The translations under genes were made by a program, and so were the position numbers. A DNA stretch of 64,000 nt. Source: a candidate division TA06 bacterium. GTDB lineage: Bacteria; Edwardsbacteria; AC1; EtOH8. The notes under the pieces were generated by a model. The model was not told where the DNA came from and searched no databases. It saw only the letters and a program-made list of their open reading frames with translations. Below are positions 22,962 to 45,428 of the stretch, one piece after another; the first letter of the stretch is position 1, and every line of letters starts with the position of its first letter. The DNA is taken from NCBI GenBank assembly GCA_016235665.1, contig JACRJI010000001.1:62001-126000 (forward strand), given 5' to 3'.

Positions 22962-23819
22962 TTAAAAGACAGGGGTCTTGGCTTTGGTGTCGGCGCCGGC
23001 GGCCTCGCTCTTCAGGCCCAGGTCGGCCACCACGGTTTCTATCAGGGTCTCGTCCACCGCCTGGGCTCCGGCCATGGCCGCCTCCAGCAGGGCGTTGTCG
23101 CAGATGGTGTTTATCAGCCTGGGTTTTCCATCGGAGTAAAAGTGGATGAACTCGTAGGCCGAGTCGGTGAACAGCTCCCGGGTGCAGCCCACCACTGAAA
23201 GCCGGTACTGGATGTAGCCCCGGGTGGATTCCGAGGTCAGCGGCTCCAGCTTGTGCTTGACCGCTATCCGCTCCCGCAAGGGCGGGTCCAAAGCCAGGCA
23301 CTGCTCCAGGTCGGGCAGCCCGAACAGCAGGAAGGTTATCAGCATGCTGCCGTTGACCTCCATGTTCAGCAGGCCCCGCATCTCCTCCATGATCTCCTTG
23401 TTCTTGAGCATGTTGGCCTCGTCGATGATCACCACCGCCTTGCGGCCGTCGTTGTAGATCTTCATCAGCTGCTCGTAAAGCTGGCCCACCAGGGCGGCCT
23501 TGGAATCGGCCGGCTTCTCCACCCCCATCTGCAGCGCGATCTTGCTGATCAGCCAGCCCGGGGTGACCTCGGAATGTACGATCACCAGCAGGGCGGTCTC
23601 GTACTGGTCGTCCGGCAGGATCTCCAGCAGGCGGCGGGAGACGGTGGTCTTGCCGGTCCCGATGTCGCCCAGTACCACCGCCAATCCCTTCATCATCTCC
23701 GCCGCATGGTTAAGCTTAAGTATGGCACGGGAATGCTGGGGGCTGTCGTAGTAAAAGCGGTTGTCGGGAGCGTTGGAGAACGGCTGGTCCTTAAGACCGA
23801 ACATTTGCTTGTAGTCCAT
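22962..23819 (-). CDS. ExeA/MshM-like AAA ATPase
   Basis: The 285-residue product starts YKQMFGLKDQPFSNAPDNRF, the usual beginning of ExeA/GspA and MshM ATPases, then Walker A GDIGTGKTT, Walker B KAVVIIDEAN, the sensor region LITFLLFGLPDLEQ, and an arginine-rich LRERIAVKHKLEPL followed by GKPRLINTICDNALLEA. Such ATPases assemble type II secretion or pilus machines; no peptidoglycan-binding domain is attached here. A good AAGGAG site precedes the ATG. It is followed by the PHP gene in one transcript. No other secretion genes are in the window, so the partner is unknown. Confidence 0.88.
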   Translation of the reverse strand: MDYKQMFGLKDQPFSNAPDNRFYYDSPQHSRAILKLNHAAEMMKGLAVVLGDIGTGKTTVSRRLLEILPDDQYETALLVIVHSEVTPGWLISKIALQMGVEKPADSKAALVGQLYEQLMKIYNDGRKAVVIIDEANMLKNKEIMEEMRGLLNMEVNGSMLITFLLFGLPDLEQCLALDPPLRERIAVKHKLEPLTSESTRGYIQYRLSVVGCTRELFTDSAYEFIHFYSDGKPRLINTICDNALLEAAMAGAQAVDETLIETVVADLGLKSEAAGADTKAKTPVF

Positions 23820-23916: not shown

Positions 23917-23941
23917 AAAGCGGCTGAAAAACAGCCGCTTT
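23917..23941 (-). terminator. Intrinsic terminator after the SpoIID gene
   Basis: On the minus strand AAAGCGGCTG and CAGCCGCTTT form a perfect 10-bp stem around a five-base TTTTT loop, followed by TTTT then ATTGC. It ends the six-gene operon whose last gene stops at 23992 and insulates it from the ExeA gene beyond. Confidence 0.9.
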
Positions 23942-23991: not shown

Positions 23992-25179
23992 TCAAAAAAG
24001 CCTCTTAATTTCCACCTCCCGGTAATAATGTCTTAAAATATTATTATAGCTCTTTCCCTCCCGGGCCATCCCGATGGCCCCCCACTGGCAAAGCCCCACC
24101 CCGTGCCCGTATCCGGAACCTTCCAGGGTCATGGAAGCGACGAAGCCTTCTTCATCCCGCTGCACCTTCAGCTCGAACCTGGTGCTCAAGACCGGGCTGG
24201 CTGAAAGTCCAAACCTGATCTTGTCCTTGTACAGCACAGTGTCCCCGCAAACGGCCGATACCTTCAGGGCCAGCACCCGGCCGGATCGGGATCTTTCCAG
24301 TATCTCCGCATTCCTGATCCTGGCCTGGGGTTGGCCGGGGAAAAGCCTGTCCAGCATTTCCCGGGCGGTAACCGTATCCTGCCAGGAATACCGGGGTGAG
24401 ATCTTGCAGTAGTCGTCTTTGACTGACCTCAGGAAGGGAAACCTCTCGTCAATTGCCTGCCAGACCTCGGAAGGCATTGCGGTGTGGCCCCCGCAGGTGG
24501 AATGGAAATTGGCCGCGATCACTTTGCCGTCGCAGGTCAGAACCTGGCCCCGGGTTTCCTCCACCGCTTTTCGGATCAAGGGAGGAACGTTCCCGCCGCT
24601 GTTGTAGGCTTGGTGCTGGACCCCGGCTTCGATGTCGTAACCGGCCTCGGGCGAGGCCCCGATCCTGGTGATGGCGTAACTGCGAGAGGCCACCGCCTGG
24701 GCTTTCAAGGCCTCCAGTTCCTGGCGGCCGCTGCCCATCTCGGCGCTGACCACGCCCAAAAGATATTTTTCCAGTTCGGTCTCCAGCACCAGCAGCAGGC
24801 TATTGCCAGCTGCCTGGCGGATTTCGGCCGGCCCGGAGAATTCCCGTTGGTTGATGAAGAATGGCGACCGGGAGTAGATCCTGACAAAACCCCGGATCGG
24901 GCCCAGGGTCTGGCCCTGGCTGGTTTGGATGGCCAGTCCCCCGGACGCAGGCAACAGCTTCCAGCATTGCCCGGGAACAATGGCTGCGCTGTGGTCCTGA
25001 TCGCTGAGATAGACGGTGTCTGCACCCTGCACCTCCGCCTGAGGAAGGCCGCGGCCCAGGGCGATCCGGATCAGCGCCACTTCCGGCTCTGGTTTTTGCG
25101 ACAGGTAACGGGGGGCGCATCCGGCCAGGACCGATCCCAGCAAGATCAGCGTAATTTTAAGGAAATTATTTTTTCTCAT
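23992..25179 (-). CDS. SpoIID/LytB-domain lipoprotein
   Basis: The 395-residue product has a lipoprotein signal (LILLGSVLAGC, lipidated Cys about residue 21). SpoIID-family motifs follow: LLGVVSAEMGS with the likely catalytic Glu, LKAQAVASRSYAITR, FHSTCGGHT, and near the end GSGYGHGVGLCQWGA. SpoIID is a lytic transglycosylase that cuts denuded glycan in sporulating Firmicutes; in non-sporulating bacteria homologues are thought to remodel the wall. It overlaps the upstream TMTC-like gene by 14 bp and is the last gene of the operon, ending at a strong terminator. Its link to glycosylation genes may mean envelope glycan work. Confidence 0.9.
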   Translation of the reverse strand: MRKNNFLKITLILLGSVLAGCAPRYLSQKPEPEVALIRIALGRGLPQAEVQGADTVYLSDQDHSAAIVPGQCWKLLPASGGLAIQTSQGQTLGPIRGFVRIYSRSPFFINQREFSGPAEIRQAAGNSLLLVLETELEKYLLGVVSAEMGSGRQELEALKAQAVASRSYAITRIGASPEAGYDIEAGVQHQAYNSGGNVPPLIRKAVEETRGQVLTCDGKVIAANFHSTCGGHTAMPSEVWQAIDERFPFLRSVKDDYCKISPRYSWQDTVTAREMLDRLFPGQPQARIRNAEILERSRSGRVLALKVSAVCGDTVLYKDKIRFGLSASPVLSTRFELKVQRDEEGFVASMTLEGSGYGHGVGLCQWGAIGMAREGKSYNNILRHYYREVEIKRLF

Positions 25180-27055
25180 TTTTCTTCAAGGCTTCGATCC
25201 TCCGGCCGATGAACTCCCGGTTGACCGGCTGGCCCAGCTTTTGGGCGGTCTGTAAAAATATTCCCCACTGGACCGCCGCTCCGGCGGGATCGGTCTTTTC
25301 CAAAGCCTGGGCCAGGTTCATCCTGCTCTCCAGATGATCGGGGTTTGACGCCAGGGCCTTTTGCCAAAGTCCTATGGCCTGACCTTCATTGCCCTGCCGG
25401 ATCAAGGCCAGGGCCAGGCCGTTGTAAGAACCGGGATCGCCGGGGTTGGCGGCCACGGCTTTTGAGTAAACCTCCGCGGCCTTATCCCACATTTTTTGTT
25501 GGCAATAGATGATTCCCAGGTTGGTCCATCCCTCCTTGCTTTCAGGATCAAGGGAAACCGCCTGTTTAAAGGCTTCTTCAGCCCGAAGCAGGTCGCCCTT
25601 GCCTCCATAGCTGATGCCCAGCGTTATATAGGCGTCAGGGCTGGCGGGATCAAAAGACAGGTTTTTAAGGGCATAGATGATCGCCTGGTCGTACTTCTCC
25701 CACTTGGCGTAAACCAGTGACAGGCCGTGCAGGCTGTTGAAATAAGTAGGGTCTAGTTCCTCTGCCCTTAACAGATGGCGCTCGGCGGAAGGCAGGTCGC
25801 CTTTCTGGTAATAAAAGTTTCCCAGGTAATCGTGGGCGATGTAGGAATTTGGGGAACGGGAAACCTCGGTGGTCCAGAATCTGAAAGGATCCTGCCATTC
25901 CAGATTTCGTCTTATGGAAAGGGTCATCATGGCTATCAGGACAAGGAACAAGACGGCCCCAGCCAGTTTCCTGTTCTCCAGCCTGCTCCAAAGATATCCG
26001 GCCCATACCGCAAAACCCATCAAGGGCAGATATAAGAACCTCTCCGCCAGAATGGCCGTCAACGGCAGCAGGTTGGAGACCGGCATCAGGCCGGCCACCA
26101 GCCACAGCCAGCCGAAGGCCAGGTATCTCTGTTTTTTGATGTCCTGCCAGGCCAGCAGGCTGATGCCCGACAAAACTGCCAGGGAACCAAGCACCCGCCA
26201 ATCCAGCAGGGAAGTGGAAAGCTGATAGACATAATCCACCCGCGGCCGGAGAGGAAGGAACAGCAGCCGGACGTATTCCAAAGACGCCCGGAACATGGTG
26301 AAGAACGTGGTCCAGACGGAGTCGCCCCAGTATGGGCATTGCGAGACCCGGCCCAGAGCCAGCCGCCGCACTGCCAGGTAAGCCAGTATCAGGACAAAAT
26401 AGGGTGCATATCTTTTCCATCCGGCGGCCAGCGTCCTGATCCTGCCCTGGCCCTCAAAAAGCCAGTCGTAAAGCATGATCAGCAGGGGAATGACCACGGC
26501 CGTTTCCTTGGACAAGAGGGCCGGAACGAAGCAGGCCAGCGACAAAACCAGATGTATCTTTTTCCGGGTCTGAAAATATTTCCGGTAAAAGATGAACATC
26601 ATCAGGCCGAAAGCTGTGAACATCAGGTCGCCCCGGCTGGAGATCCAGGCCACCGCCTCGGTCTGGACCGGGTGCAGGGCAAATATAAGGCAGGCCATGG
26701 TTGTCAGCCGCCGGTCATTGAACAGCTGTCCCAGCAGGATATATGCCAGCAGGATGTTCAGCAGGTGCCACAGCAGGCTGGTCAGGTGAAAGCCGAAGGC
26801 GCCTGAGCCCCAGATCTTATAATCAATCAGGTACGAGACCGTCCGCAGCGGCCGCCAGATCCCGTCCCAGAAGATGCTGGCCATGGAGCGGCTGGAGTTG
26901 GCAAAGTACTCCGGGACAAACCGCCACTCACGGATCTTGGCGTTCTCCTGCACAAAAAAACGGTCATCGTACATGAAATCGGCCGAGAATACCGGCCAAT
27001 AGGCGATGACCGTCAGGGCCAGGATCAGGATTATTTTATAATGTCTTTTTAGCAA
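25166..27055 (-). CDS. TMTC-like membrane glycosyltransferase with C-terminal TPRs
   Basis: The 629-residue product has about 10-12 membrane segments in residues 1-390 and TPRs in 400-620 (NYFYQ-type AERHLLRAEELDPTYF, AEEAFKQAVSLDPESKEG, AAEVYSKAVAANPGDPGSY). The first loop carries the acidic pair in FMYDDRFFVQENAK, then IWRPLRTVSYLID and GFHLTSLLWHLLN; this order (DD, WRPL, FHL-LLH) is that of TMTC/DUF1736 GT-C proteins, which transfer mannose from a dolichol-phosphate donor to proteins in animals. The start appears to be TTG at 27055; an in-frame stop lies just upstream. It belongs to the operon with a Dpm1-like GT2. Donor and target are inferred, not shown. Confidence 0.8.
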   Translation of the reverse strand: MLKRHYKIILILALTVIAYWPVFSADFMYDDRFFVQENAKIREWRFVPEYFANSSRSMASIFWDGIWRPLRTVSYLIDYKIWGSGAFGFHLTSLLWHLLNILLAYILLGQLFNDRRLTTMACLIFALHPVQTEAVAWISSRGDLMFTAFGLMMFIFYRKYFQTRKKIHLVLSLACFVPALLSKETAVVIPLLIMLYDWLFEGQGRIRTLAAGWKRYAPYFVLILAYLAVRRLALGRVSQCPYWGDSVWTTFFTMFRASLEYVRLLFLPLRPRVDYVYQLSTSLLDWRVLGSLAVLSGISLLAWQDIKKQRYLAFGWLWLVAGLMPVSNLLPLTAILAERFLYLPLMGFAVWAGYLWSRLENRKLAGAVLFLVLIAMMTLSIRRNLEWQDPFRFWTTEVSRSPNSYIAHDYLGNFYYQKGDLPSAERHLLRAEELDPTYFNSLHGLSLVYAKWEKYDQAIIYALKNLSFDPASPDAYITLGISYGGKGDLLRAEEAFKQAVSLDPESKEGWTNLGIIYCQQKMWDKAAEVYSKAVAANPGDPGSYNGLALALIRQGNEGQAIGLWQKALASNPDHLESRMNLAQALEKTDPAGAAVQWGIFLQTAQKLGQPVNREFIGRRIEALKKNEKK

Positions 27056-27093
27056 CCGTCGGTTTAAGTGTTATTTGCCGCATTGGTTATTTC

Positions 27094-28500
27094 TTATCCC
27101 GCCCAATCCCGGAACCCCCACAATGCCCTGAAGGTCTGCTTCCAGGCGGCCGGGGTTTTAAGAGACCTCATGGTCTTCAGTATCTGTCCGGGCCTCAGGT
27201 AAAATTCCCGGAAAGCCCTGCTCCTGAAGGCTTCCACCTCGGCGGGATCCAGCTCCGGTGTTTTGATGACGGAAAAGTTCTGTTCAAAGAACCTCCAGTC
27301 CCGGTTGGTTATCCAGCCTTCATCATTGGCTCGGGCATAAAGTTCCGAACCGGGAAAAGGCACCGCGGAATAGAACTGGGCAAAATCAAAATCCAATTCC
27401 TTCGCCAGGTCCAGGGTGGTTCTCAGATCCTCCCTGGTTTCACCGGGGTACCCGAACATCACGTGGGCCGTGACCTGCAGGCCGGCCTTTTGCGCCATGG
27501 CCACTGCTTTCCGGGTCTGATCTACCGTGGTCCCCTTGGCCATCAGGTCCAGGATCCTCTGGCTGCCGGACTCCACCCCAAAGCCTATCATCCAGCAACC
27601 CGCCTGTTGGAATCTTTCCAGCATCTCCCGGTCCACCTGGTCCACCCGGCTGTTGCAGACCCAGCCGATATTGAGTTTTCGGGAGATTATCTCGTCTGCC
27701 ACTGACAGGGCATGATCCCTGTCCAAGGTGAAAGATTCGGCCCAGAAAAGGAACTGGTTCACTCCGGTCTGCTTGATGTCGTGTTCTATCTCATCCACGA
27801 TCCTTTTGGGGGAGAACTTTCTGAGCCTTTTCCCGTAATAGACATGGTCGGCGCAGAACCGGCAGCCAAAAGGACAGCCCCGGTTGGTGGCCAAAAGCAG
27901 GAACGGCTGGTCCGAGAGCGGGAGTTTATAAAGATTCTTGTCAATCAGGTCCCAGGCCGGGTAAGGCAGGCGGTCAAGATCTTCCATGGTGGCCCTGGGC
28001 GGGTTGTGAAGAACCTTCCCCTGCCGGCGGTAGCTGATGCCGGAGATGCCGTCAAACTTTTCCCCTGAGACCAGTTCCAGCGCGGTCTGCTCCGGCTCCC
28101 CCATTATTATGACATCCAAGCCCCGGGAAAGGCCGAAGGTCTCCTCCGGCAGGGCGGTGGGGTGGATGCCAAAAAACGCGGTCCGGCAGCCCGGCAGAGC
28201 TTGGGCCGTCTCGTCCACCGTCTCCATGTCTCCGGCGATGGACGGGGTGGCGCTGTTGAACAGGCACCAGTCGGGGGCATATTCCTTGACGATCTGGATC
28301 AGCCTGGACCTGGAGATATTTTCCACTATGCAGTCGTGCAGTTTCACCTGATGCCCGGCCCGGCGCAGCACCGCCGCGGTCAGGGCCAGGGAAAGCGGCG
28401 GCCAGACCGAGGTCCAGGCCCCTGCCCGCTGCATGCACCTTCCCTCCCGCACCTGGGACACCCCCAGATAGGCCGGGGGATTTACCAGCAAAACCTTCAA
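27094..28500 (-). CDS. B12-binding-type radical SAM protein
   Basis: The product (about 468 residues from TTG at 28500) has an N-terminal Rossmann-like B12-binding domain (VLLVNPPAYLGVS, LTAAVLRRAGHQVKLHD) that lacks the DxHxxG cobalamin His motif, then the radical SAM domain with RGCPFGCRFCAD (Cys about 209, 213, 216) and MFGYPGETREDLRTTL. The C-terminus (REFYLRPGQILKTMRSL) resembles BchE-like/hopanoid or lipid-modifying members. TTG at 28500 overlaps the glycosyltransferase stop as TTGA with GGGAG eight bases before it, so this start is preferred over the ATG at 28527. Substrate unknown; a lipid or sugar is likely from context. Confidence 0.82.
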   Translation of the reverse strand: MKVLLVNPPAYLGVSQVREGRCMQRAGAWTSVWPPLSLALTAAVLRRAGHQVKLHDCIVENISRSRLIQIVKEYAPDWCLFNSATPSIAGDMETVDETAQALPGCRTAFFGIHPTALPEETFGLSRGLDVIIMGEPEQTALELVSGEKFDGISGISYRRQGKVLHNPPRATMEDLDRLPYPAWDLIDKNLYKLPLSDQPFLLLATNRGCPFGCRFCADHVYYGKRLRKFSPKRIVDEIEHDIKQTGVNQFLFWAESFTLDRDHALSVADEIISRKLNIGWVCNSRVDQVDREMLERFQQAGCWMIGFGVESGSQRILDLMAKGTTVDQTRKAVAMAQKAGLQVTAHVMFGYPGETREDLRTTLDLAKELDFDFAQFYSAVPFPGSELYARANDEGWITNRDWRFFEQNFSVIKTPELDPAEVEAFRSRAFREFYLRPGQILKTMRSLKTPAAWKQTFRALWGFRDWAG

Positions 28501-29168
28501 GTCAGCATCTCCCGGAGGATGTGCCACAGGAATTTCCAGCCCTGGCTGGTCTTCAGCTTGGAGACCCCGCCCTGCCGGGAATATTCGTGGCTGGCTATCT
28601 CGGTGATCCTCAGACCCCGTTTGAGGGCCTTGATCACCATTTCCTGCTCGATCAGGAAACCGTCGGCTTTCAACCCCAGTTCCCTGGCCTTCCGGACTTC
28701 GATGGCCCGGAATCCGTTCTCGCAGTCGGTGATATCGGCCTTCCAGCGCCAGTTGAGCATCAGGCTGATCAATGCTCCGCCGGCCTGGCGGATGATGTTG
28801 TCCAAAGTGCCGTGGAACTCGTCCGAACCGCCCCGCAATCTGGAAGCGATCACCAGGTCGGCCCGGCCTTCCCTGATCGGCCGGACCAGTTCCGGGATGT
28901 CCGAGGACTGATGCGAGCCGTCGGCGTCCATCAGCACCAGGATCTCTCCCCGGGCTTTTTGTATGGCCAGCCGCACCCCGGCCCCCTTGCCCCGGCCGTC
29001 ATCGGCCAGCACCAACGCGCCTTCATTCCGGGCTATCTCTGCCGTCCGGTCAACGGAACCGCCGTCAACCACCAGCAGTTCGCCGGCATGGTTTCTTGCG
29101 CCGAGCACCGCCCGGGCGATGGTGGATTCCTCGTCCCTGGCAATTATGGCTACGGTAATGTTTTTCAC
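28497..29168 (-). CDS. GT2 glycosyltransferase, Dpm1-like
   Basis: The 223-residue product is a single GT-A domain: VAIIARDEESTIARAVL, ELLVVDGGSVDRTAEIA, a DADGSHQSSDIPELV metal-binding DAD, SRLRGGSDEFHGTLDN, and NGFRAIEVRKARELGLKADGF with FLIEQEMVIKAL. This pattern resembles polyprenyl/dolichyl-phosphate mannose synthases and related lipid-linked sugar synthases. It lacks the C-terminal membrane helices of some relatives. It starts and ends in four-base overlaps (29165-29168 with the TPR gene, 28497-28500 with the radical SAM gene). In the operon it could make the lipid-phosphate sugar used by the TMTC-like protein. Confidence 0.85.
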   Translation of the reverse strand: MKNITVAIIARDEESTIARAVLGARNHAGELLVVDGGSVDRTAEIARNEGALVLADDGRGKGAGVRLAIQKARGEILVLMDADGSHQSSDIPELVRPIREGRADLVIASRLRGGSDEFHGTLDNIIRQAGGALISLMLNWRWKADITDCENGFRAIEVRKARELGLKADGFLIEQEMVIKALKRGLRITEIASHEYSRQGGVSKLKTSQGWKFLWHILREMLT

Positions 29169-30205
29169 TTACTGTCCTTAAGTTTCTTCTCAGCCTGCTT
29201 AAGCACTTCGTAAGCCCGGCCTCTTTCGTATTTCAGCCGCCGGGCTGACCGTTCATCCAAAGCCAGGTTCAGAGCTTTTTGGGATGTTTCCAGGGCTTCC
29301 CGGTATTTTTTCTGCTGGTAGTAACACTTGGCCAGGCGGCTGCCTACGACCACCCGGTTGAAATTGTTCATCGGCTGGCTCTGGTCCAGCAGTTTCAGCA
29401 GCCGGGCATATCCGTCGGAGCCCTTGTCCCATTGCTTGGTCCGCCAGTAAACTTCCGGGGCTATCCAAAAAAAAACGTGGTTTTGAGGATAACTATTCTC
29501 TAGTTGCCGGGCCTGCTCCAGGGCCAGCGGGTATTTTTCATAATCTACATATATCCAGGCTAGGCCGTTCTGGGCCATTACCTTTGAATAGCGCCCCTTT
29601 TCTATCGCCAGCTTGATCTCTGCTGTGCCCTGTTCCCGGTTGTCGCCGATGAAAGGCAGCCACTTCAGAACGCTGGTGGCCTTGGTGCGGAAATAGTGAA
29701 AAGAGCCGATGCCCATATAAGCGTCATACAACTGGGGATCCAAGGCGGCGGCTTTGTTCAGATCGGAGACGGCCGACAGGCCGTTGTTCAGGGCCGAAAA
29801 GTAATCCTTGGTCCGGACCTTAATGGCTGCCCGGTAGGCATAGGTCCCTCCCCGGATGAAAAAGGCCCAGGCATCGCGGCGGTCCTGCGAGATGGCCCGG
29901 CCGGAAAGGTCCAGTGAGCTGTCCAATAGTGATCTCTGGAGATCATCCCAGACATCGGTCTCGTAGGCCATGGATCTGAGCTGGTAGGCTCCGGCCTTGA
30001 AAAAATATCCGGCCGGGTTTTTGGGATGCTGGTTTATGAAGGCGTCGAAGGTGTCTATGGCTTCCTGATACTGTCCCTGGTAAAGGATCTCCAGCCCCCG
30101 GTCTATCCGGAGATCAAATTCATCTCCCACCGCCGCCTTCAATGATGAGAGAGGCCACAGCAGAAGGACAAAAAGGAATAATATATATGCTGAATTATTT
30201 TTCAC
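29165..30205 (-). CDS. Exported TPR-like protein
   Basis: The 346-residue product begins with a hydrophobic signal (SAYILFLFVLLLWPLSSLKA). TPR-like repeats follow: GLEILYQGQYQEAIDTFDAF, PAGYFFKAGAYQLRSM, a central less regular part with LLDSSLDLSGRA and DPQLYDAYMGIGSFHYFR, then LAKCYYQQKKYREALETSQK near the end. This resembles periplasmic TPR proteins of surface-glycan systems. It overlaps its neighbours by four bases at both ends (30202-30205 and 29165-29168). No enzymatic motif is seen. It probably scaffolds partners of the operon outside the cytoplasm. Confidence 0.75.
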   Translation of the reverse strand: MKNNSAYILFLFVLLLWPLSSLKAAVGDEFDLRIDRGLEILYQGQYQEAIDTFDAFINQHPKNPAGYFFKAGAYQLRSMAYETDVWDDLQRSLLDSSLDLSGRAISQDRRDAWAFFIRGGTYAYRAAIKVRTKDYFSALNNGLSAVSDLNKAAALDPQLYDAYMGIGSFHYFRTKATSVLKWLPFIGDNREQGTAEIKLAIEKGRYSKVMAQNGLAWIYVDYEKYPLALEQARQLENSYPQNHVFFWIAPEVYWRTKQWDKGSDGYARLLKLLDQSQPMNNFNRVVVGSRLAKCYYQQKKYREALETSQKALNLALDERSARRLKYERGRAYEVLKQAEKKLKDSK

Positions 30206-31386
30206 AGCAGGTGCCTTCCTAAAAGCAGCAGGCCGGGGTCCGACCTTACCACCTGCTTGGCCACGTCTATGGGATTTATTTTTGACGGATCCTTGTCCTT
30301 CAGCAGTTTGGCCAGCAGCCGGGCGATCCGGTTCATGTCATCATCTTCCAGTTTCAAGAAAGCCCGGCGGACCTTGGCGTGGTATTTGATGTCCTTCCAC
30401 AGGCCCGACCACCAAAGGGCGGGATAATCCCCGAGTGCCTTTTCGCTCCCGGTCTTCAGGTATTCCGATATTTGGCGGGCGGCCATCTGCCCCGAGGCCA
30501 TGGCAATGGCGATCCCGGCCCCGGACAGGGGATCGGTCAGCCGGGCGGCATCGCCGGCCAGCAGCACGTTCCTGGATACCATGGGATGGTCTTCCTCCAG
30601 CGCCGGCGTGCCTCCGCACATGGTCTCTATGACCCGGGCCTGGGGAAAATGTTTTTTAAGGAATTGATCCAGATATTCACCGGGCTTTTTTTGCCCGGCC
30701 ATAGTGCTCAGGATACCAAGTCCCACATTGGCCCGGCCCTCCCCCTTGGGGAAGACCCATAAATAACCGCCGGGAGAAATCTCCCTCCCCACCCAAAACC
30801 TGACCATGTCCGCGGGACCGTCGATTCCTGACATCAGGTACTGTACGCAGGAATGCAGTTCGCCAGGTTTCATGGCCGTGTTCAGTCCGGCCCAGGCTCC
30901 GGTCAAGGATTCCACCCCGTCGGCCCCGATGACGGCCCGGCAGGCGACATCTCGTATCTGGTCCCGGTACAGGACCCTGACCCCGGTAAAGGCTCCCTTT
31001 TCATCAGCGATCAGGCCCACCGCCTCGGCATTGACCAGCACAAAAGCTCCGGTTCCGGCCGCCCGTTGGACCAGACAGCGGTCAAACAATTTGCGTTCCA
31101 GCACGTACCCCACTCCAGGCCAGGGCACCGCCACTTCGGTGCCGTCCGGTGAATATAGCACTGCCCCGTTGATGGGCGCAGCTATCCATTTGGGGTCCGG
31201 CCGGCAGAACAGCTCCAGGCTCTTCAGGCTGACGGCCTCGGCGCAGCATAGTGGGATGCCTACCTCTCGGTGCTTCTCCAAAAGCAACACCGAATGACCC
31301 GACTGGGCTAACGTTTCGGCGGCCAATGCTCCGGCCGGACCGGCACCGATGACCACTGTATCATATTGACAGTTGAGTAATTCCAT
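30202..31386 (-). CDS. Geranylgeranyl-reductase-family FAD protein
   Basis: The 394-residue product has the FAD dinucleotide motif VVIGAGPAGALAAETLAQSG at the start, a middle GADGVESLTGAWAGL, the WVFPKGEGRANVGLGIL segment typical of geranylgeranyl reductases, and a second FAD motif LAGDAARLTDPLSGAGIAIA. The family saturates isoprenoid chains: archaeal lipids, chlorophyll phytol, menaquinone and dolichol-like polyprenols. A TTGAAA-17-TAACAT promoter ends nine bases before the ATG and no ribosome site is seen, so the mRNA may be leaderless. It heads the operon with GT2 and TMTC-like genes, so a polyprenol carrier is a fitting but unproven substrate. Confidence 0.85.
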   Translation of the reverse strand: MELLNCQYDTVVIGAGPAGALAAETLAQSGHSVLLLEKHREVGIPLCCAEAVSLKSLELFCRPDPKWIAAPINGAVLYSPDGTEVAVPWPGVGYVLERKLFDRCLVQRAAGTGAFVLVNAEAVGLIADEKGAFTGVRVLYRDQIRDVACRAVIGADGVESLTGAWAGLNTAMKPGELHSCVQYLMSGIDGPADMVRFWVGREISPGGYLWVFPKGEGRANVGLGILSTMAGQKKPGEYLDQFLKKHFPQARVIETMCGGTPALEEDHPMVSRNVLLAGDAARLTDPLSGAGIAIAMASGQMAARQISEYLKTGSEKALGDYPALWWSGLWKDIKYHAKVRRAFLKLEDDDMNRIARLLAKLLKDKDPSKINPIDVAKQVVRSDPGLLLLGRHLL

Positions 31387-31394
31387 AGAACTTT

Positions 31395-31423
31395 ATGTTA
31401 ACATAACAACCATATTATTTCAA
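31395..31423 (-). promoter_or_regulatory. Promoter of the GGR-like operon, giving a near-leaderless mRNA
   Basis: On the minus strand a -35 TTGAAA (31423-31418) and -10 TAACAT (31400-31395) are 17 bases apart. The start site would fall near 31388, only about two bases before the ATG at 31386. No Shine-Dalgarno sequence lies before that ATG. Confidence 0.5.
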
Positions 31424-31520: not shown

Positions 31521-33674
31521 ATGAATAAACAATCATCTATAAAGCATGTTTGGCCGGGCTTGGTCCTGACGTTTCTGTTTTTGGGATCAGAGGCATCTTC
31601 CCAAAGCTGGACCAGCTATACCAATTATAACCAGGTTATAAAACTGGCTTTGGATCCCTCTTCGCCCAGTCTTTGGGGCGCCACCCCCGGCGGGGCCGTT
31701 TTATTTTCCTGGCAGGATACGGTGTTGGTTGAGAAATGCGACAACACCAACGGCCTTCCCAATGTTGAGCTTTCTTCTTTTGCCATTGGCCGTCACGGTT
31801 ACAAATGGTTCGGCACCTGCGGCGGCGGGATAGCCAGGCTGGATTCCACCGGGTCATCCTGGCGGGTTTTCAATGCCATAGACGGCCTGCTTTCTGACAC
31901 GGTCACAGCCCTTTGTAGTTACCAGGATTACATCTTTGCCGGAACCAAACAGGGCATGTCCTTTTCCAATGACTATGAATCCTGGCCGGGCGTTTCCAAC
32001 AATCTGGTATTCCCCAATTTGCAGACCATTAATTCCATTAGCCATCGGAATGATACTCTTTGGATTGCAACTGATGTGGGCCTGGCGAGGGCTGCCGCTT
32101 CCTATTTTATCAACCATGCTTCTCCCTCCTGGCAGCGTGATTCGGCTTTCGGTTTAAGTTCGCGCAATGTACAGTGCGTCTTTTTATCCGATACCGTCAG
32201 CATAATCGGCACCTTGACCGGCGCGGCAAAGCTGATTGGCGGGAACTGGCAAAGAATAGACTCTTTAAATGGTTATCAGGTTCGAAACATTACCCAACTT
32301 GGAGATTCCCTGTTCTTCGCCACCAACCAGGGCATCAGGATGAGCTGTCAGGGTGTATGGATCAATCTGTCAGCGGGGCTTTTAAGTGCCAATGCTTATT
32401 CCTTGGCCATTGACGGACTAGGCCGCCTTTGGTGCGGAACAGAATTGGGACTTGCAGTTCTGCAGGGCAGTGCTTGGCATCCTTACCGATTTAATTGTAT
32501 AGGAAGTAATGCCTGTTTCAGGGTAACCTGCGACCAAACAGGAAACCCTTACATTATCACCCGGCCTCAAAAAGAAATTCAGTACTTGCTGGATGGACAA
32601 TGGCAGACATACAATCAGGCTAACACCGGCATGCCTTTTTCCCTTTTGGAACGTTTGGCAATTGACAAACATGGGAACTTGCTGGCCGGAAGTTGGGGAT
32701 CGGGTCTTTTCATCCGTAATTCGGCAGGAATATGGAGACAGTATATAGCAGAATTACCGACCAATGTAATTAAAAACATATTGCTTACGGAAAATGGATT
32801 TTATCTTGCCCAGTGGGGGCATGATTACCGGGATCCCGTAACATTTTACAGTTATGCCGACACCCTGTTTCATGTTTACTGGGGTCCCATAGAAACGATG
32901 CGGCCTAATACCCTATCTATTGATGGGGATAGAACTTTGTGGGTGGGCACCAATGCGTCAGGACTTTATAACAGAAATTATACCGGCCTTTGGCAAAATT
33001 TCAACGAGACCAATTCAGAACTGCCTACCAGTCCCGTAAATGCACTATCCTGCGATAACAATGGGCGGCTTTGGATCGGTACCGTAAATGGCCTGTTCTT
33101 TTTTGATGGGAAGAAGATAGAATCCTATCCCCACCCCTTGCTTTCCGGAACGATCATTTCCATAAAAGTCGACCGGGCCAACAACAAATGGATCGGCACC
33201 GACAAAGGCCTTAATCTTATTACCTGGGACGGTCAGGTACAGGCTTACACCCAACGGGACCTGGGAAACAACGGCTCCAGGCTTTTAAACGACAACATCA
33301 ACGAAATTGCCGTCGCCCCGTTAGACGATCAAACCGACGGTATTTACGTTACGACAGAAAAGGGCCTGAGCCTTCTAAAATACAACCTAGTGCTGCCCCG
33401 CCAAACGCTATCCGTGAATGTAGCGCCAAACCCTTACCGCCCGGGCCGGGATCCCTACTTTTACTTCAGCAACCTGCCCTCACAATCGGTGGTCAGGATA
33501 TTCACTTTGGACGGTCGTCTGCTGGAAACATTCCATGGGCCCACGGCGCCGGAACATATTTTAGTTATTAACCCCAAAGATATATCGTCAAAACTTGTCT
33601 CTGGACTCTATCTTTGCCATGTCAGCGCCCCGGGGTTCAAACAAACTGTCTGCAAACTGGCCGTCACCCGCTGA
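31521..33674 (+). CDS. Exported two-component-type beta-propeller protein with T9SS-like C-terminal domain
   Basis: The 717-residue product has a signal peptide (KHVWPGLVLTFLFLGSEA). Much of residues 30-625 is made of Reg_prop-like blades of the kind GLPNVELSSFAIGRHGYKWF, DGLGRLWCGTELGLAVL, DNNGRLWIGTVNGLFFFDG and DRANNKWIGTDKGLNL, predicting beta-propellers. The last 85 residues (VAPNPYRPGRDPYFYFSNLP, VRIFTLDGRLLETF, LVSGLYLCHV) match the T9SS type A sorting domain, so it is probably exported and anchored at the cell surface. No kinase follows the propeller, unlike hybrid two-component proteins. It is the first gene of an island with three glycosyltransferase-type genes three bases downstream. 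Confidence 0.85.
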   Translation: MNKQSSIKHVWPGLVLTFLFLGSEASSQSWTSYTNYNQVIKLALDPSSPSLWGATPGGAVLFSWQDTVLVEKCDNTNGLPNVELSSFAIGRHGYKWFGTCGGGIARLDSTGSSWRVFNAIDGLLSDTVTALCSYQDYIFAGTKQGMSFSNDYESWPGVSNNLVFPNLQTINSISHRNDTLWIATDVGLARAAASYFINHASPSWQRDSAFGLSSRNVQCVFLSDTVSIIGTLTGAAKLIGGNWQRIDSLNGYQVRNITQLGDSLFFATNQGIRMSCQGVWINLSAGLLSANAYSLAIDGLGRLWCGTELGLAVLQGSAWHPYRFNCIGSNACFRVTCDQTGNPYIITRPQKEIQYLLDGQWQTYNQANTGMPFSLLERLAIDKHGNLLAGSWGSGLFIRNSAGIWRQYIAELPTNVIKNILLTENGFYLAQWGHDYRDPVTFYSYADTLFHVYWGPIETMRPNTLSIDGDRTLWVGTNASGLYNRNYTGLWQNFNETNSELPTSPVNALSCDNNGRLWIGTVNGLFFFDGKKIESYPHPLLSGTIISIKVDRANNKWIGTDKGLNLITWDGQVQAYTQRDLGNNGSRLLNDNINEIAVAPLDDQTDGIYVTTEKGLSLLKYNLVLPRQTLSVNVAPNPYRPGRDPYFYFSNLPSQSVVRIFTLDGRLLETFHGPTAPEHILVINPKDISSKLVSGLYLCHVSAPGFKQTVCKLAVTR

Positions 33675-33677
33675 ATC

Positions 33678-34931
33678 ATGAAGAACCTTCTGATATTAAG
33701 CTACTACTATCCGCCTCTGGGATTAAGCGGGGTACAGCGGACCGTCAAGTTCGTCAAATACCTGCCCCAGTTCGGGTGGAACCCCATCGTCATCGCGCCC
33801 CGCCCCCGCGGCAGCTACATATATGACCCGGCCCTTGGTGCCGAAGTGGCCCAAGCCAAAGTGTTCCGCACCTGGTCCCTGGATCCGCTTTTTTTATCTC
33901 CCCAAAAGAACACCGGATCCGCCATTCACAAGAACTCCCTTGCTTCCCGGATAAACCGCTGGCTGTTGCCGGACAACAAGACCGGCTGGATCCCCTTTGC
34001 CCTGCAGGCTGGCATGAAGGCTGCCAGGCAATTCCCCATTGATGCCATCTATTCCACCGCTCCCCCCTATTCCTCCCACTTGGCCGGGGTATTGCTGAAA
34101 AAGTTTTTAGATAGGCCATTGGTGGCTGATTTTCGTGATGCCTGGACCAGTTATACCTGGACCAAATATCCGGCCGGCCCCCTGCGAAAATTGGACCATA
34201 AAATGGAAGAACTGGTTTTAAAAAACGCCGACCTGGTCACTGCGGTCAATAGCCGGATACTTGATGATCTCTGCGGCCTTCATCCCAGGATTGACGGTTC
34301 CAAATTTCATCTGGTCTCCCACGGTTACGACCCCGAAGATTTTGCCGGAGCCTCAAGTCCGGATCCGGATCATTTTACCATTGCCTACACCGGTACTTTC
34401 ATCAACAATCGCAGCCCCAGGACCCTGTTCGAGGCTGTTAAGCTGCTCCGGAAGCAGAATTTTTCCGGGCTGAACAAATTAAGGATAGTGTTTGCCGGCA
34501 GTCACCGGGAGAGTGACCTGGCTTTAGTAAAAGAATTCGAGTTGAACTCCATTGTCCGGTTTACCGGGTACCTTACCCACCGGCAAAGCATAAAGATTCT
34601 GACGGAGGCCAATCTGTTGTGGCTGACAATGGGGCCTGAGGAGACCGCCAACGTCACACCCGGTAAATTATTTGAGTATTTAGGCTCCCAAAAACCCATC
34701 GCCGCCTCCATTCCTTCAAATGGAGCGGCGGCCAAGATAGTTATTGGTGCGGGAGCCGGCTCCGTGGTTGCCCCTGATGATACGTCCGGCTTGGCCGGGA
34801 TCATCCGGCAGCAGATGTCCGCCTGGGAGAACAAAAAAACAGCATCCCCGATTGACCCGGAAAGGCTGAAATTCTTCGACCGGCGGCTCATCACCCAACA
34901 GTTTAGCGATTTGCTGAACGGACTGTCATGA
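33678..34931 (+). CDS. Glycosyltransferase, GT4 family (GT-B fold)
   Basis: The 417-residue product has an N-terminal half starting LILSYYYPPLGLSGVQRTVK, typical of WbuB-like GT4 enzymes, then DAIYSTAPPYSSHLAG and ADFRDAWTSY. The C-terminal half carries FTIAYTGTFINNRSPRTLFE, IVFAGSHRESDL and a nucleotide-sugar site LWLTMGPEETANVTPGKLFE, in which PGKLFEYLGSQKP replaces the usual EX7E helix. It acts on the cytoplasmic side, adding a sugar from a nucleotide donor to a growing glycan. It starts three bases after the propeller gene and overlaps the next gene by ATGA. Confidence 0.9.
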   Translation: MKNLLILSYYYPPLGLSGVQRTVKFVKYLPQFGWNPIVIAPRPRGSYIYDPALGAEVAQAKVFRTWSLDPLFLSPQKNTGSAIHKNSLASRINRWLLPDNKTGWIPFALQAGMKAARQFPIDAIYSTAPPYSSHLAGVLLKKFLDRPLVADFRDAWTSYTWTKYPAGPLRKLDHKMEELVLKNADLVTAVNSRILDDLCGLHPRIDGSKFHLVSHGYDPEDFAGASSPDPDHFTIAYTGTFINNRSPRTLFEAVKLLRKQNFSGLNKLRIVFAGSHRESDLALVKEFELNSIVRFTGYLTHRQSIKILTEANLLWLTMGPEETANVTPGKLFEYLGSQKPIAASIPSNGAAAKIVIGAGAGSVVAPDDTSGLAGIIRQQMSAWENKKTASPIDPERLKFFDRRLITQQFSDLLNGLS

Positions 34932-36370
34932 GAGAACGGCTTTGGGAAAATATAAAGTCATTTAAGTTTGCCCCGGAAATGCTTTTGGCCGGGATCGCAC
35001 TGCTGGTCATGATCCCGTCTTTAGGCATCGGGCCCATCAGCGATGATTTTTCCTGGCTGCAATTGGCCAAACAGGGATACTCCCAAAGCATTGGACAGTA
35101 TCTTTCCCAGCCAGCCCCCTTTGGGTATTTTCGCCCGCTGCCGATGTTGTTTTTTAAAACAGCCTGGCAGATTTTCGGGCCTGCCCTGTGGCTGTACCGG
35201 TTGACCGCCTTATTGCTCCATGCCCTGACGGTGATATTGATCTACCGGCTGGCCCGCTTGTTTTCCTTTTCGGGCAGGGTTTCCCTGATTTCGTCAGTCA
35301 TCTTTGCCCTGATGCCCTGTCACGCCGAAGCCCTTCTTTGGTTGTGTTCGGTGAACGAGCTTTTTTCTGCGTTTTTCATTTTGGCCGGCATTTATCTTTT
35401 CTTTTCCAGACCTTACTGGAGGGGTGTGTTAATATCCTCCGTATTTTTCTTACTGGCCCTTTTATCCCGGGAAAGTGCTTTTTGCTTCATTCCGCTGTTG
35501 CTGATGCTTTCCCTGCCCCGTATCATGGGGATTTGGCGGCGATTGGCCCTTGCAATAACCGCGCCAACTTTTCTATACGTAGTCTTTAGAGCATTATGGT
35601 TAGGAGGTCTCCCGGATTCTTACCTGCCTCCGGCTCCCGGTCGGATGGACCTGAACCTGCTGGGAATGTCCATCCGCCTGGCCCAGTATCTGATCAAGAT
35701 TCTGCTGCCTGTCAAAAGCCTGATGGAATTGTTTGCCTTTAGGCCCTATGTCTGGTTCCGGGAGATATACAGTTTTCCGCAGATGCATCCCGTGGCATTC
35801 TGGGCAACCAGCATAAGCGCGTTATTGATCATATTGTTTTCTTTTTACGGAGTGGTAAAAACTTCCGGGCGCCAGATCGTCTGGCCGTTTTTGTTTTCCG
35901 CCCTGGCTTTATCTGTTTATCTTCCTTTTTACAATACCGGAGAAAGGTTCCTTTACTTGCCTTCGGCTGGCGTGGCAGTCGGATTGTCGCTCTGGATCGC
36001 AAAAATAATTGGCAATAAAAGAAATTTGGGGCTTAGTCTGTTGGCCCTGACCCTTATGATTTACGGAATTTCCTTCGGCAACCGCATTTACCGTTGGCAC
36101 CGGGTGGGAGACGTAACCGCCCAAGCCCTGGCCCGGCTTGATCAAAGAACGGAAATGCTTGCACCGGGTTCCCAGGTGTATCTGACTGATATGCCTGGCC
36201 TGGTATTCGGGATACCTTGTTTCAGTTATTACACCTTTAACCATGCTTGGGAGTATACTTTCCCCGGACGGAAGGTCGAGTATTATTTTGACCCGGCCCC
36301 TAAGCCCAAAAAGATTGGTGCCGCTTTTTCTTTTTCCCTGAAAGAGCTTGATTTTAGCCCCCTGCCATAA
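34928..36370 (+). CDS. GT-C-like multi-spanning membrane protein
   Basis: The 480-residue product has about 11 membrane segments. The first loop carries an acidic pair in GPISDDFSWLQLAKQG, then FGYFRPLPMLFFKTAW and YRLTALLLHALTVILIYRLA, the same order as in the TMTC-like proteins of this window, but without C-terminal TPRs. The C-terminal part has TGERFLYLPSAGVAVGLSLW. This pattern fits a GT-C glycosyltransferase using a lipid-phosphate sugar. It overlaps the GT4 gene by ATGA (34928-34931), so its translation is coupled. The donor and acceptor are unknown. Confidence 0.75.
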   Translation: MRERLWENIKSFKFAPEMLLAGIALLVMIPSLGIGPISDDFSWLQLAKQGYSQSIGQYLSQPAPFGYFRPLPMLFFKTAWQIFGPALWLYRLTALLLHALTVILIYRLARLFSFSGRVSLISSVIFALMPCHAEALLWLCSVNELFSAFFILAGIYLFFSRPYWRGVLISSVFFLLALLSRESAFCFIPLLLMLSLPRIMGIWRRLALAITAPTFLYVVFRALWLGGLPDSYLPPAPGRMDLNLLGMSIRLAQYLIKILLPVKSLMELFAFRPYVWFREIYSFPQMHPVAFWATSISALLIILFSFYGVVKTSGRQIVWPFLFSALALSVYLPFYNTGERFLYLPSAGVAVGLSLWIAKIIGNKRNLGLSLLALTLMIYGISFGNRIYRWHRVGDVTAQALARLDQRTEMLAPGSQVYLTDMPGLVFGIPCFSYYTFNHAWEYTFPGRKVEYYFDPAPKPKKIGAAFSFSLKELDFSPLP

Positions 36371-43413: not shown

Positions 43414-45408
43414 TTACTTGGAGCGGTAAGGTTTCAGTTTGGCCAGCACGGCCGGATCAGGAGCGGCCCCCAGTTTCAGCGCCTGGTCGTAATGAACTAC
43501 CGCCTGGTTATAGTCTTTCCGGAGATAGCTGACATAAGACATCTGTTCGTGAAACAAGTGGCCTTCCGGGCGTATCCTCAGGACGGCTTGCAACAAGTTT
43601 TGGGCTTTATCAAAAGACCCTTGGCTGATGTACATTGCGGCCAAATTGTAATTGGCCGTCTGATTCCCCCCATCCAGCTCTATTGCCTTAAGATACTCCC
43701 TCTCAGCCTGGTCGTACAAACCAATCTTCAGATGAACGCTCCCCAGATTGGCTTGGGCCTCAGCCCAGTCCGGTTTAAGCCTTATCGCTTCGCCAAATTC
43801 CCGCTCGGCTTCCGGCAGCCTCCCTGACAGATAATAAAAGCTGCCTAAATTATTATGGGCCGAAGCCAGCCGGGGATCAGCCCTGATCGCCTTTTCAAAT
43901 TGTTCCCGGGCCTGATCCGGTAAGTTTTGCTGGTAATAGACGGACCCCAGATTGTCCATGGCCTCGGCCAGGCCAGGTCGGTACTGCAAAGCTGTTTTGA
44001 ACTGTTGTTCCGCCAGACCGTAATTGCCCTTCAGTCGGTATAAAATCCCCAAATTGTTGTAGACCCCGGCGTAGTCCGGCGTGATCCCCAAAGCTGTTTG
44101 GTATTCCCTTTCAGCCAGATCGTACTGCCCTTTTTCCTGGTGCAACAACCCGAGGTTATAATGGACCAGTGAATTTTGGGGCGACCTTTTGCCGGCCGCC
44201 GTCCAGAATGTCTCCCGATCCTTAAAATCGTTTGAATACCAAAAGGTCCCAAAAGCCGCAAACAATATTACCAGTCTCGGAATGATCGCAGTCTTTCCCG
44301 CAGTTTCAAGTTTGAACTGGTTCACCTGGGAAAACGCCGTCAGCAGTCCCATGAAGGGCAGGTAAAACCTGTGCTCCAGGGCCAGAGTTATGAATGATCC
44401 CCTGATCACATTGGGCAGCAGAAACAATAGGGCCCATAGCAAACCGAACACAAACAAAGACCTGTCTTTAAGCCCCACCCGCCAGACCAGGCCGGCCAAC
44501 AAAACCAGCGCTGTTGTCCCGTAAAAAAATGCGCCGATCTCCGGGCCGGCCACCGGCGAAAGATTCACCGGAAAAAGCGCCTTGCCCAGATAAGAGAATA
44601 CGCCAGCCAGGAATTCTAACGAAGCAATTAACCTGCCGGCCTGGCCCTCCGGACTGAATCCCAGGGCGTGATTGCGGATCCAGTACCATGACAGGAATAT
44701 GGCGACCCACAGAACCGCATTCAGTGCCAGCCTTTGGTATTGTCTTGGCCGTTGGGGAACCAAAAAGAAATATCCCAGGCAAAGAACCGGCAGCACCAGG
44801 GCTGACTCCTTGGTCAAAAGAGCCAGGGCAAATAACAAACCGTTCAAAAATATGTACCGATACTTTCCGGTGGCGGCAAGGTCCATAAAACACATCAGCA
44901 TAGGCATGGTAAATACCGCCAGCAGAGTATCGTTCCGGCCGGGGATCCAGGCGGCCGCCTGGGTATTCAGGGGATGAACGGCGAACAACAGGGAAAAGAA
45001 CAGGGCCCGGCCCGGCCCGGCATCCAGTTTTTTTAATAGCTTAAAGAACAACAGGCAGGCCGCCAAATGAAGCAAGACGTTGAACAGGTGGTACCCCCAG
45101 GCCGCCAGGCCGCTCAGCTGATAATTGAGGATAAATGAGGCGGACAACAAAGGCCGGTAAAAAACGGTAGCTCCCCTGCTCAGTTCCCCGCCAAAGGCTA
45201 ACAGAATGTTCCTTAAGGAACTTAGACCCGCCAGATTATTGAGCACCAGGCTTTCATCGTCAAAATAGGTGAAACCGAAACTGACAGTCCTGAGATAGAC
45301 CAAAAGTATCGACAGGGATATCAGAACCGGGGGCCAAGCGCCGTTCAACAACTTGCCGCCCGTTCTGCCTGATTTTTCCGTTGATTTATGACTGGAGGCA
45401 ACTGCCAT
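43414..45408 (-). CDS. TMTC-like membrane glycosyltransferase with TPRs, second copy
   Basis: The product (about 664 residues) has 10-12 membrane segments and then about nine TPRs (AEREYQTALGITPDYAGVY, AEQQFKTALQYRPGLAEAMD, AREQFEKAIRADPRLASAH, AEREFGEAIRLKPDWAEAQ). The N-terminal part repeats the TMTC order: FTYFDDESLVLNNLAG with the acidic pair, VFYRPLLSASFILNYQ, and WGYHLFNVLLHLAACLLF. It is only moderately similar to the protein at 25166-27055. ATG at 45408 is preferred over TTG at 45417; no ribosome site is evident. It is followed by a creatininase gene, and rhomboid lies upstream. A lipid-phosphate-sugar donor is inferred. Confidence 0.8.
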   Translation of the reverse strand: MAVASSHKSTEKSGRTGGKLLNGAWPPVLISLSILLVYLRTVSFGFTYFDDESLVLNNLAGLSSLRNILLAFGGELSRGATVFYRPLLSASFILNYQLSGLAAWGYHLFNVLLHLAACLLFFKLLKKLDAGPGRALFFSLLFAVHPLNTQAAAWIPGRNDTLLAVFTMPMLMCFMDLAATGKYRYIFLNGLLFALALLTKESALVLPVLCLGYFFLVPQRPRQYQRLALNAVLWVAIFLSWYWIRNHALGFSPEGQAGRLIASLEFLAGVFSYLGKALFPVNLSPVAGPEIGAFFYGTTALVLLAGLVWRVGLKDRSLFVFGLLWALLFLLPNVIRGSFITLALEHRFYLPFMGLLTAFSQVNQFKLETAGKTAIIPRLVILFAAFGTFWYSNDFKDRETFWTAAGKRSPQNSLVHYNLGLLHQEKGQYDLAEREYQTALGITPDYAGVYNNLGILYRLKGNYGLAEQQFKTALQYRPGLAEAMDNLGSVYYQQNLPDQAREQFEKAIRADPRLASAHNNLGSFYYLSGRLPEAEREFGEAIRLKPDWAEAQANLGSVHLKIGLYDQAEREYLKAIELDGGNQTANYNLAAMYISQGSFDKAQNLLQAVLRIRPEGHLFHEQMSYVSYLRKDYNQAVVHYDQALKLGAAPDPAVLAKLKPYRSK

Positions 45409-45428
45409 TTTTATCAATGGTTTAGTTT

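Follow-up and report, generated by a model that had tools for sequence, protein, structure and literature searches.

An Edwardsbacteria operon with two separable parts: an archaeal-type geranylgeranyl reductase and a GT2-radical SAM-TMTC-like trio

The six collinear genes on the minus strand between positions 31386 and 23992 of the window, the whole 64,000-nucleotide stretch of Edwardsbacteria DNA analyzed here, constitute a real operon comprising two separable parts: (i) the gene of an archaeal-type geranylgeranyl reductase (GGR) and (ii) a trio of genes encoding a GT2 glycosyltransferase, a B12-binding radical SAM enzyme (rSAM), and a TMTC-like GT-C glycosyltransferase. The reading that we prefer, with a probability of about one half, is that the operon would bring together two functions, with GGR serving ether lipids and the trio acting as a module for the loading, remodelling, and transfer of a lipid-linked sugar. 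The location of GGR and the trio on one apparent transcript in five genomes counts against this two-function reading.

A sequence-only reading of this DNA had described the six genes at the same positions and on the same strand, with enzyme classes now borne out by Pfam and NCBIfam profiles (Table 1), and had most of them joined by overlaps of 4 to 14 bp. The overlaps are found at the GGR/TPR, TPR/GT2, and GT2/rSAM junctions (4 bp each) and at the TMTC/SpoIID junction (14 bp), whereas rSAM and TMTC are separated by a gap of 38 bp. The most likely rSAM start is the TTG at 28500, which overlaps the GT2 stop codon as TTGA; a start at the GTG at 28527, with a 31-bp overlap, is unlikely, given the in-frame stop of the G003 orthologue in that stretch and the in-frame TAA of the G007 orthologue. 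The anticipated terminator corresponds to the best minus-strand terminator-like hairpin; both this site and the promoter-like site upstream of GGR were defined by consensus scans only. The exported TPR protein displays a hydrophobic N-terminal stretch at residues 4-27, and the SpoIID lipoprotein matches TIGR02669 with 215 bits and carries a lipobox that can be read directly in the sequence.

Table 1. Features of the operon and related loci (positions refer to the window except where a locus is named).
Feature	Position	Strand	Evidence
GGR, archaeal-type geranylgeranyl reductase, FAD enzyme, 394 aa	30202..31386	-	TIGR02032, PF22578 GGR_cat, PDB 3oz2
Exported TPR protein, 346 aa	29165..30205	-	TPR profiles, N-terminal hydrophobic segment, synteny
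GT2, polyprenyl-phosphate-sugar-synthase-like, 223 aa (trio gene 1)	28497..29168	-	PF00535, AglJ model, PDB 5mlz, motifs
B12-binding radical SAM enzyme, HpnJ-like (trio gene 2)	27094..28500 (corrected TTG start)	-	PF02310 and PF04055, HpnJ model, CxxxCxxC
TMTC-like GT-C glycosyltransferase with C-terminal TPRs, 629 aa (trio gene 3)	25166..27055	-	weak PMT_2 and TPRs, TMTC motifs, AF2 and Foldseek
SpoIID/LytB lipoprotein, flanking core gene	23992..25179	-	TIGR02669, LAGC lipobox, synteny
Intrinsic terminator-like hairpin	23917..23941	-	10-pair GC-rich stem, 5-nt loop, T tail
Promoter-like site 5' of GGR	31395..31423	-	TTGAAA-17-TAACAT, 9/12, TG ahead of second hexamer (extended -10)
Paralogous rSAM-GT2 loci	L157:5463-7565 (G000:C8); L155, L156, L158, L159, L160, L166		

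Next to the operon, a gene at 31521-33674 that runs divergently to GGR encodes a PorZ-like (type IX secretion) protein and has a GT4 gene behind it; this arrangement adjoins the locus in nine genomes. On the other side, an ExeA-like ATPase (22962-23819) resembles the XrtA/PEP-CTERM-associated ATPases with 190 bits, below cut-off, and is 85-98% identical across the phylum, its neighbours being far less conserved.

The separation of the two parts emerges from the comparison of ten genomes of the phylum, drawn from one family and four genera and including G000, the 2.7-Mb genome of the window. The order GGR-TPR-GT2-rSAM-TMTC-SpoIID, whose conservation in related genomes the sequence-only reading had proposed to check, is observed in G000, G001, and G003, and also in G007 and G008 with contig edges (G008 continues on L084); this recurrence indicates that the arrangement is not due to chance. 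Outside these five genomes carrying both GGR and the trio, (i) G002, G004, and G009 retain GGR and lack GT2, rSAM, and TMTC as a unit, the TPR gene being followed almost directly by SpoIID; (ii) G005 retains the trio between TPR and SpoIID and lacks GGR between PorZ and TPR, all on one contig; and (iii) G006 displays neither, as judged by genome-wide searches of this 88%-complete genome, in which the locus was not located. Genome-wide searches disclosed no GGR-family protein over the cut-off in G005 or G006; those for GT2 and rSAM gave no close orthologue of either in G002, G004, G006, or G009. G009 encodes one TMTC-like homologue at another site, 42% identical and without the GT2-rSAM pair. 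Contig gaps were ruled out as the origin of the absences in G002, G004, G005, and G009: in all four, the flanking genes are close neighbours on one contig, about 10-60 bp apart at the empty trio slot and about 150-200 bp apart at the empty GGR slot.

The presence of the TPR gene at the locus depends on neither GGR nor the trio, and SpoIID is retained where the trio is lost. Only one of GGR and GT2/TMTC is carried by 4/10 genomes (Fisher p = 1.0, in a small set), and six of the ten carry both the GT2 and the rSAM orthologue, the other four carrying neither (Fisher p = 0.005, uncorrected for kinship). Trio-positive and trio-negative genomes are intermixed in a tree of five flanking genes from nine genomes, some nodes of which are weakly supported; since the trio fills the same slot in three genera, its simplest reading is that of an ancestral module lost several times.

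The dissociation of GGR and the trio in both directions speaks against the central proposal of the sequence-only reading, a single reduced-polyprenol (dolichol-like) glycosylation pathway in which GT2 and the TMTC-like enzyme would work with polyprenyl phosphate that GGR has saturated. The tight operon common to five genomes agrees with such a pathway, as does the saturation of dolichol phosphate by archaeal GGR (PMC10821996), and the GGR-lacking genomes display the fewest full-length TMTC-like proteins (0-1 versus 1-10; p = 0.09, both from one genus); nevertheless, besides the synteny, five Planctomycetota genomes harbour the GT2-rSAM pair without GGR, and ether-lipid synthases offer GGR another substrate, which makes a single pathway highly improbable.

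The sequence-only reading was right in recognizing a GGR-like flavoprotein, and the profile scores together with the match to PDB 3oz2 assign it to the archaeal type. GGR reaches 236 bits with TIGR02032 (cut-off 159) and 93 bits with GGR_cat (PF22578; cut-off 27), and matches the digeranylgeranylglycerophospholipid reductase from Thermoplasma acidophilum (3oz2) at 2.1e-72 with the family profile. The MenJ and ChlP assignments were rejected, with 75 bits for MenJ, 69 for ChlP, and 142 for the BchP-ChlP subfamily, all below the best archaeal models (207 and 150) and below their cut-offs. The similarity to 3oz2 extends over about 350 residues, including the FAD-binding and GGR_cat domains and the GGYxWVFPKGEG motif; in contrast to the archaeal reductase, GGR is bacterial, falls under the archaeal equivalog cut-offs (at best NF041160, 207 bits versus 780), and adjoins the TPR gene instead of lipid genes. 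Its nearest functional counterpart would thus be the archaeal digeranylgeranylglycerophospholipid reductase, although it is not classed as that equivalog. A scan of genome contigs with GGR alone as the query returned no relatives.

The ether-lipid set of G000, comprising a GGGP synthase, a DGGGP-synthase-like UbiA, and a GGPP-synthase-like enzyme, is located at G000:C8:423022-423678, G000:C13:131416-132099, and G000:C14:59654-60481. The GGGP synthase is over the equivalog cut-off, with a PDB match as well, and has homologues in 10/10 genomes; the DGGGP-synthase-like UbiA is likewise found in all ten, beside UppP in nine, and in G000 UppP is adjacent and UppS nearby. The presence of GGGP- and DGGGP-synthase homologues in the same genome provides GGR with an alternative substrate route, a better home for the enzyme, and the best-supported role, as judged from sequence, would be the saturation of isoprenoid chains, most probably those in archaeal-type ether lipids. 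Genus g3 (G005 and G006) keeps both synthases and lacks GGR, a sign that the link between GGR and ether lipids is not strict. Archaeal-type ether-lipid genes are known in FCB-group and related bacteria (PMC7852524, Villanueva et al.; PMC6431249). The set described here resembles the FCB-group set in that a bacterium carries all three of GGGP synthase, DGGGP synthase, and GGR, but the latter was described in Cloacimonetes (PMC7852524), and here one genus with both synthases is devoid of GGR. A further UbiA homologue of G000 (G000:C3:66275-66997; L128:6212-7084) exceeds the cut-off for decaprenyl-phosphate phosphoribosyltransferase, suggesting a possible polyprenyl-P-pentose pathway.

The first enzyme of the trio belongs to PF00535, with AglJ (TIGR04182) as the best NCBIfam model (130 bits, under the cut-off of 325) and the dolichol-P-mannose synthase from Pyrococcus furiosus (5mlz) as the best PDB match; the DADGSH and RxxGxSKL motifs are conserved. 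The description of GT2 as Dpm1-like by the sequence-only reading therefore stands, in the form of a DPM/AglJ-like enzyme, which suggests sugar transfer to polyprenyl phosphate. GT2 shares with AglJ and the dolichol-phosphate-sugar synthases the GT2 fold family, the DxD motif, and the acceptor-side RxxGxSKL motif, but differs in having no transmembrane segments, in scoring far under the AglJ cut-off, and in being paired with a radical SAM enzyme.

No gene is linked to GT2 more tightly than that of the radical SAM enzyme, for which the sequence-only reading proposed no role. The protein comprises the B12-binding (PF02310) and radical SAM (PF04055) domains with a conserved CxxxCxxC motif; its best profile is HpnJ (TIGR03471; 249 bits over 445 residues, cut-off 578), and its best PDB match is AprD4 (6fd2), an enzyme of the apramycin pathway that deoxygenates an aminosugar. 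HpnJ completes a cyclitol ether from bacteriohopanetetrol-bound glucosamine, and the HpnI-HpnK-HpnJ pathway already provides an example of a lipid-bound sugar being remodelled by an rSAM enzyme (PMC12583986). The likeness to this pathway resides in the combination of a glycosyltransferase with an rSAM enzyme, acting on a lipid-bound sugar in the HpnJ system, and in the shared domains; the differences are that the protein scores below half the HpnJ cut-off and that the lipid here is probably polyprenyl phosphate. As to HpnI and HpnK partners, the operon genes include no deacetylase, and GT2 is DPM-like. Given that HpnJ and AprD4 act on sugars and that the rSAM gene is strictly coupled to GT2, the enzyme may act on a lipid-linked sugar.

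Alternatively, the operon could tailor membrane lipids, next to GGR, with lipids as the substrates both of the rSAM enzyme, in the manner of HpnR and of ladderane-type or GDGT-ring enzymes, and of the glycosyltransferases GT2 and TMTC. B12-rSAM families with lipid substrates do exist (PMC13142503), GGR lies nearby in the operon, and the HpnJ substrate is itself a hopanoid-bound sugar; however, the lipid-chain models score much lower than HpnJ (HpnR 105 and ladderane-type 124 versus 249 bits), and the rSAM gene retains GT2, not GGR, as its partner, which leaves lipid tailoring distinctly doubtful.

The GT2-rSAM partnership extends beyond the phylum. When genomes were scanned with the rSAM alignment, homologues came up in five Planctomycetota MAGs, at about 51% identity, all of which encode a GT2 orthologue (236-262 bits versus at most 121 for the next protein); these genomes were chosen by their rSAM gene and are related to each other, and thus represent few independent events. 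In three of the five, the two genes share a strand and are no more than about 4 kb apart; the diagnostic motifs are kept in both proteins, and no GGR was found in any of the five. No TMTC gene consistently accompanies the pair in these genomes, only one of which has a full-length TMTC-like match; the third step may therefore be specific to some lineages. Within the Edwardsbacteria, paralogous pairs of B12-rSAM and DPM-like GT2 genes form a second locus in seven genomes, usually beside a SAM methyltransferase and a DUF362 protein and in two genomes beside a TMTC-like gene, and a third rSAM type adjoins a different GT2 in three genomes. That such pairs recur supports a functional coupling between HpnJ-like rSAM and GT2 enzymes. 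The partnership, of which a limited literature search returned no description, is the most interesting residue of the analysis, and is a variant of known polyprenyl-P-sugar systems.

The third enzyme of the trio yields a weak PMT_2 match together with TPR profile matches. Comparison with the human TMTC motifs identifies 6/7 positions (M1-M5 and M7): M1, M3, M5, and M7 are present, M2 and M4 are represented by their cores only (RP and KET), and the expected spacing of the M6 PxxP motif is not seen at P325/P331. The PDB matches listed for the full-length model were all TPR proteins, and the GT-C domain was for this reason folded alone. The AF2 model of the domain (pLDDT 86.6, pTM 0.90) retrieved with Foldseek, as best matches, ArnT (with undecaprenyl phosphate), AglB, STT3, PglB, and Pmt4, at TM-scores of about 0.5 and low identity; a phmmer search of the PDB with the GT-C domain found nothing. 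Motif positions and predicted fold thus bear out the TMTC-like assignment already proposed for this GT-C protein with TPRs; its sugar donor and acceptor are predictions. As in the O-mannosyltransferases TMTC1-4, the GT-C domain precedes the TPRs and the DD, RP, RxD, KE, DW, and ERxxY positions are found, whereas the protein is bacterial and spells M2 and M4 only partly. Full-length TMTC homologues in prokaryotes have been reported (PMC7801869). G000 encodes about ten full-length TMTC-like proteins, and the window includes a second TMTC-like GT-C and TPR protein (43414-45417) as well as a membrane protein of 480 aa that weakly resembles GT-C proteins (34928-36370).

ArnT as the top Foldseek match, together with the divergently adjoining PorZ-like and GT4 genes, would fit an ArnT-like module in which the acceptor of the modified sugar from the GT-C enzyme is a surface glycan such as lipid A or LPS, and not a protein; this is fairly unlikely, considering that the C-terminal TPRs and six of the seven motif positions are those of protein O-mannosyltransferases.

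According to the preferred two-function reading, GGR would saturate the isoprenoid chains of ether lipids derived from the GGGP- and DGGGP-synthase homologues, and the trio would be a self-contained accessory module located between the core genes TPR and SpoIID. The observed homology, motifs, and linkage can be arranged into a putative order of steps, with a predicted sugar, radical reaction, and acceptor: (i) GT2, at the inner face, would transfer a sugar from a nucleotide donor to polyprenyl phosphate, by its similarity to DPM/AglJ; (ii) the HpnJ-like B12-rSAM would remodel the lipid-linked sugar by ring contraction, deoxygenation, or C-methylation; and (iii) after flipping, the TMTC-like GT-C would transfer the modified sugar to an acceptor in the periplasm or at the surface. 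A more specific version, quite improbable as it stands, is a cross-phylum module in which the cobalamin rSAM rebuilds a polyprenyl-phosphate-bound sugar (e.g., to a ring-contracted, cyclitol-like form) and the TMTC-type transferase places it on exported proteins.

If the two-function reading is true, a DPM-like GT2 and a B12-rSAM would form a conserved partnership in two bacterial phyla, from which radical chemistry on a sugar bound to a lipid would be predicted. The archaeal-type GGR of the Edwardsbacteria would be set apart from protein glycosylation and tied to the question of mixed membranes in FCB-type bacteria, and the genus with both ether-lipid synthases and no GGR would offer a natural test of the GGR substrate.
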